Part shown: one piece after another, positions 35,336 to 36,784 of the stretch | Layout of the letters: the number at the start of each line of letters is the position of its first letter | How positions within the stretch are numbered: the first letter of the stretch is position 1 | NCBI RefSeq assembly: GCF_013214175.1 | Contig: NZ_JABSPA010000012.1 | Location: forward strand, 34,463 to 98,462 | Reading direction: 5' to 3' | DNA length: 64,000 bases | DNA from: Colwellia sp. | GTDB lineage: Bacteria; Pseudomonadota; Gammaproteobacteria; Enterobacterales; Alteromonadaceae | Position numbers and translations under genes: made by a program | Notes under the pieces: model-generated | Told to the model about the DNA's origin: nothing | Database searches by the model: none | What the model saw: only the letters and a program-made list of their open reading frames with translations

Positions 35336-35380
35336 GCTTCCGGTTGTTCTTTTTGTAAAGACACCTTAAAGTAAAATATA

Positions 35381-35418
35381 AAACCTCTATTGAATGTTAA
35401 ATTGATAGAGGTTTTTTT
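35381..35418 (+). terminator. Intrinsic terminator after ssb
   Basis: AAACCTCTAT (35381-35390) pairs with ATAGAGGTTT (35405-35414), followed by a T-run. Confidence 0.9.
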
Positions 35419-35550: not shown

Positions 35551-35556
35551 TATAAT
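35551..35556 (+). promoter_or_regulatory. Candidate -10 box of the adenine deaminase leader
   Basis: Perfect TATAAT 62 nt upstream of the riboswitch aptamer. No good -35 hexamer at 16-18 bp. Transcription from here would place the hairpin AGCTAGTCATT/AATGACTAGCT (35581-35613) and the aptamer in the 5' leader. Confidence 0.4.
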
Positions 35557-35617
35557 AAAATGAGGCAATATAGAATAGTAAGCTAGTCATTTCTTTAGAT
35601 GCAATGACTAGCTTTCC

Positions 35618-35684
35618 CTTCGAATAATCCCAATGATAGGGATTTTTGGTCCCTACCAGGAACCAATAAATCCTGATTACGAAG
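35618..35684 (+). promoter_or_regulatory. Purine (adenine-type) riboswitch aptamer, divergent
   Basis: Aligns base by base with the Vibrio vulnificus add aptamer. P1: CTTCG/CGAAG plus TAATC/GATTA (35618-35629 with 35675-35684). The J1/2-P2 segment TAATCCCAATGATAGGG corresponds to UAAUCCUAAUGAUAUGG; L2 keeps its GG; J2/3 ends in CTACC; P3 AGGA/TCCT (35658-35661, 35671-35674); L3 keeps the CC that pairs with L2. The specificity base in J3/1 (GATTA, T35677, equivalent to U74) is U, as in adenine sensors. Odd points: P2 has C-T mismatches, J2/3 is TCCCT instead of UUUCU, and a competing hairpin TAGGGA/TCCCTA (35637-35655) is possible. The downstream gene is an adenine deaminase, which supports the call. 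Confidence 0.8.
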
Positions 35685-35744
35685 AGTTTAGCGCTTTAGT
35701 GCTTTTCTCTTGGTACGAATAATATTTCTTCACAGAAAAGTACT
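35682..35744 (+). promoter_or_regulatory. Proposed expression platform of the riboswitch
   Basis: AAGAG-TTT-AGCGC-TTTA-GTGCT-TTT-CTCTT (35682-35711) forms a hairpin whose first strand overlaps the 3' strand of aptamer P1. The alternative pairing AGTGCTTTTC (35698-35707) with GAAAAGTACT (35735-35744) excludes it. In addition GTCCC (35649-35653) in the aptamer could pair with GGGAC (35765-35769) at the ribosome site. These overlaps suggest ligand-controlled translation; pairing is inferred by eye. Confidence 0.45.
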
Positions 35745-35776
35745 GAATGAACCTTTTAATTATTGGGGACTAAGTC

Positions 35777-36784
35777 ATGAAAGAATTTATTCAATCCTTA
35801 CCTAAGATCGAACTGCATCTTCATATTGAAGGCACACTTGAACCTGAACTAATGTTTGAGCTAGCAAAGCGAAACGAGGTTGATATACCCTTTAATTCAG
35901 TTACTGAAGTTAGGGATGCTTATAATTTCCATAACCTGCAGTCATTCTTAGACATTTACTTCCAAGGAGCCAATGTACTTATCCATGAGCAAGATTTTTT
36001 TGAGCTAACTTGGGCCTACTTACTGCGCTGTAAAGAAGATAAAGTTTTACATACCGAAGTGTTTTTTGACCCGCAAGCACATACCGAGCGTGGTATTAGC
36101 TTTGATACTGTGGTTAACGGTATTCATCGGGCGTTAGTCAAAGCGGCAACGGAATTAAATATTAGCAGTAAACTAATTATGTGTTTCTTACGCCACTTAG
36201 ATGAAAAGTCAGCATTTGAAACCTTAGCGCAAGCACAAGCACATAAAGATAAAATTATTGCAGTCGGCCTTGATTCAACCGAGGTTGGTAACCCTGCGGG
36301 TAAATTTGAGCGAGTCTTTAAAAAAGCACTTGAGCAAGGTTTTTTAACCGTTGCCCATGCTGGAGAAGAAGGTTCAGCAAGTAATATCTATGAGGCATTA
36401 AATTTACTAAAAATTACTCGCATTGATCATGGCGTTCGTTGTACCGACGATGAAGAGTTAGTAAAGCAGTTAGTCACAGAGCGTATTCCACTGACTGTTT
36501 GTCCACTCTCTAATATTAAGCTAAAAGTATTTGAGTGTATGGAGCAACACAATATAGTGTCTCTGCTGCGAAAGGGCGTTTGTGTCACCATTAATTCTGA
36601 CGATCCCGCCTATTTTGGTGGCTATATGACAGATAATTTTTTGGCAGTAAATAATGCGCTACCGATGAATAAATCTGAAATTGCCCAATTTACTTTAAAT
36701 GCTATTGAGGCGAGCTTTATTTCTCAAAGTGAAAAACAGCGACTAACATTAGCTACACAAGATTATATAGAATTGCATCAATAG
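35777..36784 (+). CDS. Adenine deaminase (adenosine-deaminase superfamily)
   Basis: 335 aa zinc hydrolase. Metal ligands His14 and His16 in IELHLHIEGTLEPEL, HAGEEG at ~194, and SDDPAYFGGYMTDNF near residue 276. The IEGTLEPEL and SDDPAYFGGY signatures mark the adenine-deaminase branch (Aah1/Pseudomonas type), which converts adenine to hypoxanthine, rather than true adenosine deaminase; many automatic annotations call these add. Preceded by an adenine-type riboswitch, so purine salvage is probably switched on by its own substrate. Ribosome site GGGGA upstream of the ATG. Monocistronic. Confidence 0.92.
   Translation: MKEFIQSLPKIELHLHIEGTLEPELMFELAKRNEVDIPFNSVTEVRDAYNFHNLQSFLDIYFQGANVLIHEQDFFELTWAYLLRCKEDKVLHTEVFFDPQAHTERGISFDTVVNGIHRALVKAATELNISSKLIMCFLRHLDEKSAFETLAQAQAHKDKIIAVGLDSTEVGNPAGKFERVFKKALEQGFLTVAHAGEEGSASNIYEALNLLKITRIDHGVRCTDDEELVKQLVTERIPLTVCPLSNIKLKVFECMEQHNIVSLLRKGVCVTINSDDPAYFGGYMTDNFLAVNNALPMNKSEIAQFTLNAIEASFISQSEKQRLTLATQDYIELHQ

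Follow-up and report, generated by a model that had tools for sequence, protein, structure and literature searches.

An adenine riboswitch by descent, probably degraded, ahead of an intact adenine-deaminase-type gene in Colwellia

Does the leader of an adenine-deaminase-type gene in Colwellia sp. still hold a working adenine riboswitch? The initial annotation of the DNA analyzed here (the window, i.e., 64,000 nucleotides of contig NZ_JABSPA010000012.1) had described a divergent adenine-type purine riboswitch in front of an adenine deaminase gene, and had left two readings side by side, a variant with altered ligand preference or kinetics and a decaying switch. We conclude, with a probability of roughly 0.7, that the element is a recently degraded adenine riboswitch in which control by adenine has been lost or strongly reduced.

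Identity of the aptamer and of the downstream gene

The Rfam Purine covariance model (RF00167), with which the initial annotation had proposed to scan the leader, matched window positions 35600-35699 on the + strand with 37.3 bits, marginally above the gathering score of 37 (E = 0.021 for the whole window and 2.7e-4 for 801 bases). This was the sole Purine match above the cut-off in the genome (5.01 Mb); one more match (20.4 bits, E = 4.8), considered as a possible second purine riboswitch, was taken as chance. A covariance model built from 21 relatives with the window excluded (R1) recovered the aptamer with 71.0 bits (E = 4.7e-15). Relatives were the best 80 of 149 loci from a protein scan of genome contigs, and 76 of these 80 loci (L079-L082 being left out) entered the Rfam scans. 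The leader of the related gene carried a Purine aptamer in 45 of the 76 loci (44.6-79.3 bits), including the nearest relative (L003; 94% protein identity, 68.8 bits), and R1 matched 49 of the 80 loci plus the window; a 51st match of this model, on the minus strand of the window (16.2 bits, E = 0.74), was discarded. On these sequence comparisons, the element is of the adenine type, as the annotation had proposed, and it is an adenine riboswitch by descent, with a common origin with intact switches at the same locus.

The gene and the signals around it are as follows.
35551..35556, + strand: possible -10 element TATAAT of the leader promoter, read directly; tentative
35765..35769, + strand: Shine-Dalgarno-like GGGGA; G35768 is derived in the window
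35777..36784, + strand: intact adenine-deaminase-type gene, 335 aa (NF006850, PF00962, 3ou8)

The 335-aa protein scored 538.6 bits against NF006850 (cut-off 419; NCBIfam name, adenosine deaminase) and 304 bits against PF00962 (A_deaminase). The closest PDB entries were 3ou8 together with 3pan, 3pao and 3pbm (E = 6.4e-118), then 3rys (E = 3.4e-98), and the next adenosine deaminases followed far behind (6n91, E of approx. 2e-29). We take 3ou8 and its set to be Pa0148, a protein reportedly shown to deaminate adenine in a work whose title PMC6281700 lists among its references. PA0148 is termed an adenine deaminase in PMC6629668. By homology, the gene is closest to the adenine-deaminase (PA0148 type) branch of the ADD family, which agrees with the activity named in the annotation and makes that activity a predicted one. 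Its sequence has changed alike on both branches (21 sites on the window branch and 25 on the L003 branch, with 12 ambiguous), i.e., the gene evolves no faster on the window branch than on the L003 branch.

The TATAAT at 35551-35556 was absent from the list given by a consensus scan. Base 35768 is A in L003 and in the seven outgroups compared; the derived G could boost translation, or it could base-pair with the P2 5' strand now that this strand is free. A terminator-like hairpin with a T tail (window 35380-35415) follows ssb, ahead of the riboswitch leader, and is one of 2 terminator-like sites found as compared to 0.2 expected in shuffles. Among the best 80 of 149 loci, ssb also lies upstream (within 2 kb) in L003, L005 and L006 only.

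Retained and lost parts of the aptamer

Aptamer nucleotides are numbered as in add/xpt, nucleotide n presumably being window position n+35603. The numbering agrees with the contacts named in PMC6817744. The parts of the aptamer and the folds discussed below are as follows.
35618..35684, + strand: purine (adenine-type) riboswitch aptamer, degraded, 67 nt (RF00167, R1, corresponding leaders of relatives)
35618..35624, + strand: P1 5' strand; A35623 stands in place of U20, and U20-A76 is broken
35618-35622/35680-35684 plus A21-U75: P1 pairing, read directly
35628..35634, + strand: former P2 5' strand; T35628 in place of C25
35635..35641, + strand: L2; GG (37, 38) retained at 35640-35641, T36 changed to G at 35639
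35642..35648, + strand: former P2 3' strand; TTT in place of GGG at 35645-35647
35649..35656, + strand: J2/3; C35652 in place of U49, seen in no other of the 50 aligned rows
35657..35675, + strand: P3 and L3, same as in L003; P3 is 35657-35661/35671-35675
35663-35664, + strand: CC of L3, read directly
35676..35684, + strand: J3/1 (U74 = T35677) and P1 3' strand, same as in L003
35637..35655, + strand: competing hairpin TAGGGA/TCCCTA (35637-35642/35650-35655), read directly
35618..35684, + strand: predicted rod fold, the minimum free energy (MFE) structure of the isolated aptamer region

Most of the letters expected of an adenine aptamer are in place. P1, the GG of L2, the CC of L3, P3 and the U at T35677 can all be read as the annotation had them; the letters allow 6 of 7 pairs in P1 and 5 of 5 in P3, P3 being absent from the predicted MFE structure, and the GG/CC letters for a putative L2-L3 kissing contact are present. 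The letters of A23-G46-C53 and A66-G38-C60, given in PMC3764141 as two fully conserved triples, are intact. PMC6817744 names five uridines directly in ligand binding (U22, U47, U49, U51 and U74); in our alignment U22, U47, U51 and U74 are unchanged in the window and U49 is C. Position 74 is T in 49 of the 50 rows of the alignment, the window among them; L031 alone departs.

Two structural features are lost. The mismatched P2 and altered J2/3 noticed in the annotation were borne out by the letters, i.e., P2 has three C-T mismatches (35629-35631 against 35645-35647) and J2/3 contains TCCCTA (35650-35655), which can form the competing hairpin also pointed out there. In addition to what the annotation had observed, the top P1 pair U20-A76 is gone, as A35623 faces A35679. 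The U49-(U20-A76) triple under the pocket, described in PMC6817744, is broken, the window having A20 and C49. Only 4 of 7 P2 pairs are possible, one of them a lone U-G; this is the fewest among 22 leaders, and the window alone among these leaders lacks three of the seven pairs. Across the 22 leaders (window included), the aptamer helices have 6 pairs with two-sided changes, a number reached in 0 of 500 shuffles, and 4 of these pairs are in P2, indicating that P2 is maintained among the relatives. The covariation in P2 that the annotation had suggested looking for hence exists in the relatives (4 of 7 pairs with two-sided changes), whereas the window's own changes are non-compensatory mismatches. 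The element belongs to the lineage of adenine riboswitches and, of the structural features tested, lacks two, P2 and the U49 triple.

Seven clustered substitutions

Over the 67 nt of the aptamer, the window differs from L003 at 7 sites, every one within 35623-35652, i.e., T35623A (position 20), C35628T (25), T35639G (36), G to T at each of 35645-35647 (42-44) and T35652C (49). All seven are derived in the window, as L004 and six other outgroups side with L003 at each. Their combined effect is the loss of three P2 pairs and of the U49-(U20-A76) triple, and P3, L3, J3/1, the P1 3' strand and both helices of the expression platform (X and Y, see below) show zero changes from L003. Neither A20 nor C49 is seen in any of the 49 aligned homologues. 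T25 is present in 12 of 50 rows (window included) and is found in well-scoring relatives, and G36 is likewise found in good-scoring relatives, L2 being GGG in several Photobacterium and Vibrio.

Across the remainder of the compared stretch, polarization by L004 gave 6 window-derived, 4 L003-derived and 2 ambiguous sites; one of the six, 35608, is doubtful as six of seven outgroups side with the window. On the window branch, 7 of 30 core sites changed as compared to 6 of 185 outside the core (p = 0.0005, a value that flatters since the core was drawn round the changes), and on the L003 branch 0 of 30 core sites changed. For the whole aptamer, unpolarized, there was no excess (7 of 67 aptamer sites differ, and 11 of 148 elsewhere in the leader; p = 0.44). 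An origin of the cluster by template switching was considered and rejected, because the best inverted copy of equal length explains a net 2 of the 7 changes, no better than in 60 random same-site versions (mean gain 1.9; 7 of 60 reach 3); the best direct copy also gains 2.

Predicted refolding of the aptamer

Folds were predicted with ViennaRNA, which leaves kissing loops, ligand and Mg2+ out of account. For the isolated aptamer, pair probabilities were 0.00 for P2 and 0.01 for P3 in the window as compared to 0.98 for both in L003, and P1 was still paired with a probability of 0.82 in the window. Instead of the three-way junction, the predicted MFE structure is a rod in which the P1 core is followed by pairing of 22-26 with 72-76 and then of 36-47 with L3 and P3. 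Holding P1 and P3 together is predicted to cost 5.5 kcal/mol in the window as compared to 0.2 kcal/mol in L003 at 37 C (7.8 kcal/mol in the window at 10 C); an alternative forcing cost of 20.5 is inflated by a forced lone U-G pair. With P1 and P3 forced, the TAGGGA/TCCCTA hairpin, slightly extended, occupies the P2-J2/3 region. Rod-compatible pairs total -21.0 kcal/mol in the window vs. -8.8 kcal/mol in L003. In predictions for the full leader, P1 falls to 0.00 and P3 is at 0.30, so that the isolated rod is only partly retained in the longer RNA.

Expression platform

The annotation had drawn an expression platform that shares the P1 3' strand, and such a platform is found in the relatives.
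35678..35715, + strand: helix X (anti-P1), 35678-35686 with 35707-35715; G35712 breaks one pair
35698..35744, + strand: helix Y, 35698-35707 with 35735-35744; mutually exclusive with X

X and Y overlap at 35707 and hence exclude each other, and X also excludes P1. Over 22 sequences, X is paired in 97.0% of cells, with 6 of 9 pairs invariant; as none of its pairs has two-sided changes, X is without covariation support, and the inner hairpin of the platform shows one-sided changes only. Y is paired in 90.2% of cells and has two-sided changes at 2 pairs (7 cells); 0 of 500 shuffles reach 7 cells and 187 of 500 reach 2 pairs.

In the ligand-free full leader at 37 C, the window is predicted to form X with 0.13 and Y with 0.86 probability, the same as L003, and the mean unpaired probability of the Shine-Dalgarno region is 0.20 in the window vs. 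0.40 in L003. X reaches at least 0.88 in 14 of 20 other leaders. G35712 is common to the window and L003. An earlier weakening of the platform coupling, ahead of the damage to the aptamer, is no more than possible, as 6 of the 20 other leaders have X at or below 0.11 without the G35712 change. With the aptamer imposed on these leader predictions, the start region did not open in any consistent way, and relatives vary widely; an ON/OFF prediction for the full leader was dropped for this reason.

Persistence and apparent loss of the switch among relatives

Within the genus, a protein match at E <= 1e-60 was found in 22 of 39 genomes, 18 of them with at least 71% identity, and the leader model matched 10 of these 18 close homologues; an eleventh leader match (25.9 bits), in a genome without such a protein match, was taken as chance. 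A BLAST search with the leader found matches in 12 of 39 genus genomes, partial ones in G062 (query 107-212) and G008 (query 191-231). No trace of the aptamer was seen, by eye or by model, in the leader of L013 (82% identity). R1 gave weak matches in L012, L029 and L031 (50.9, 37.5 and 33.3 bits), which are below the Rfam cut-off; these copies (L012:1837-1913, L029:1852-1930 and L031:1857-1933) look degraded and stand before intact ade genes, with changes elsewhere than those of the window. Judged by sequence, loss or degradation of the switch with retention of the gene seems to have happened in several relatives; where a gene lacks the switch, it may also be that none was ever present or that the gene lies in a different context.

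Other leaders show variation of their own. A leader from a Colwellia MAG (L007:1835-1912) has a covarying loop-loop pair G37A/C61U, a covarying P1 pair and U22A. The G37A/C61U double change was studied as a laboratory mutant of the guanine switch in PMC5480868. Three Vibrio leaders (L062:1695-1786, L071:1711-1801 and L074:1710-1800) exceed the model by 18-19 bases, which seem to lie in the P2/L2 part of the aptamer. In a Marinobacter MAG, a xanthine riboswitch (RF03054, 48.6 bits; L078:4180-4239, minus strand) lies approx. 1.2 kb downstream of ade. Three plasmid records had partial leader matches (75.5-77.0% identity), and viral contigs had no exact match to the 23-base pattern of the window allele.

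Discussion

The ancestor of this leader would have been a standard adenine riboswitch turning on translation of adenine deaminase, in which adenine would close P1, the P1 3' strand would leave helix X, Y would form and the start region would be exposed. We infer this logic from the conserved, mutually exclusive helices and from V. vulnificus add, whose ribosome site is uncovered by adenine (PMC5847336). The element shares with add (RF00167; PMC5847336, PMC8191784) its place before a deaminase gene, P1, P3, the GG of L2 and CC of L3, U22, U47, U51 and U74, and a platform competing for the P1 3' strand; unlike add, it has three C-T mismatches in P2, lacks the triple through U20A and U49C, and has a rod as its predicted MFE structure. 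In this lineage, comparison indicates that the seven clustered substitutions destroyed P2 and the triple; the aptamer is now predicted to favor a single rod tying up L3, J2/3 and J3/1, for which reason adenine binding or control would most likely be lost or strongly weakened. Translation would then be set by the ligand-free fold. Loss is also favored by the strong aptamers of relatives in the same place, as compared to the marginal score in the window with the gene intact, and by the degraded look of other relatives. Several points count against it. The gathering score is still passed, barely, and P3, L3, J3/1, X and Y are unchanged from L003, where a long-dead element should show changes. Four of the binding uridines, the L2/L3 letters and those of both fully conserved triples are intact, the aptamer as a whole has no excess of changes, P1 stays largely paired in isolation, and T25 and G36 are known from well-scoring relatives. 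As our literature search found no mutational studies of U49C, U20A or P2 loss, we infer their effect on binding; a search for purine riboswitches in Colwellia brought up one paper, on lysine riboswitches. Overall, the window element is most likely unresponsive to adenine and at best a crippled adenine riboswitch.

A weakened but working switch of low affinity or altered kinetics, in which adenine and L2-L3 kissing would together impose the three-way junction in spite of the poor P2, is unlikely. Four of the five binding uridines and the L2/L3 letters are retained, the absence of changes in P3, L3, J3/1, the P1 3' strand, X and Y would suit a switch in use, and ligand binding persists with L2-L3 base pairs disrupted (PMC8191784), so that the fold tolerates some damage; these points have to be set against three consecutive mismatches in P2, the loss of U20-A76 and of its triple partner U49, and the predicted cost of holding P1 and P3, which is higher still at 10 C. 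An altered ligand specificity within the purine scaffold, the other half of the "variant" reading in the annotation, is very improbable because U22, U47, U51 and U74 are unchanged, though U49, counted as ligand-binding in PMC6817744, is not. J2/3 is changed, as in known variant classes, and xanthine-II, guanine-II and 2'-dG variants (PMC9295807) share with the window changes in the joining regions of the same scaffold; unlike these variants of guanine riboswitches, the window keeps U51 and position 74, has no insertions in J2/3 or J3/1 and has lost a helix. Most of its changes break helices, and the gene is still of adenine-deaminase type. Of the annotation's two readings it is decay, not altered ligand preference, that the evidence favors.

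The rod itself invites the reading that selection reshaped the leader into a control hairpin independent of ligand and perhaps dependent on temperature or Mg. New or stronger rod pairs result from six of the seven changes, and 30 of 2187 possible same-site variants have an MFE at least as low; the signal fades under other null models (342 of 3000 when seven core changes are drawn at random; 160 of 3000 when the substitution types are kept and their places in the core randomized), and the test was picked after the fold had been seen. We thus did not retain the rod as strong evidence of selection, and these model-based chance tests are suggestive at most. The P1 part of the rod is moreover gone in the full-leader prediction, and the allele was found in none of the 38 other genus genomes searched, leaving new function a distinctly improbable explanation. 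That the allele occurs in only one of 39 genus genomes would also fit a sequencing or assembly error, which is hardly credible given seven substitutions without an indel in an assembly rated 100% complete in 19 contigs. A riboswitch caught in conversion, from a ligand-binding three-way junction to a stable rod that still holds the P1 3' strand, which would leave a cold-sea bacterium with a ligand-independent leader (always on, or a thermosensor), is rather doubtful.

Recent degradation of an adenine riboswitch, our preferred reading, bears on how riboswitches are lost. Intact leaders of Colwellia, Psychromonas and Moritella (L003, L014, L019 and L022-L025) share the corresponding leader, the platform helices and the gene with the window; they score 68.8-79.3 bits with Rfam as compared to 37.3 in the window, the seven core changes being specific to the window. 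A match that clears the Rfam gathering cut-off by a narrow margin can be a switch that has probably ceased to work. The element is ordinary in kind and of some use as a natural experiment on how riboswitches are lost: the window and L003 form a natural pair, with gene and platform near-identical and an aptamer that went from strong to barely recognizable, which allows a direct test of riboswitch loss and of the fate of the controlled gene.
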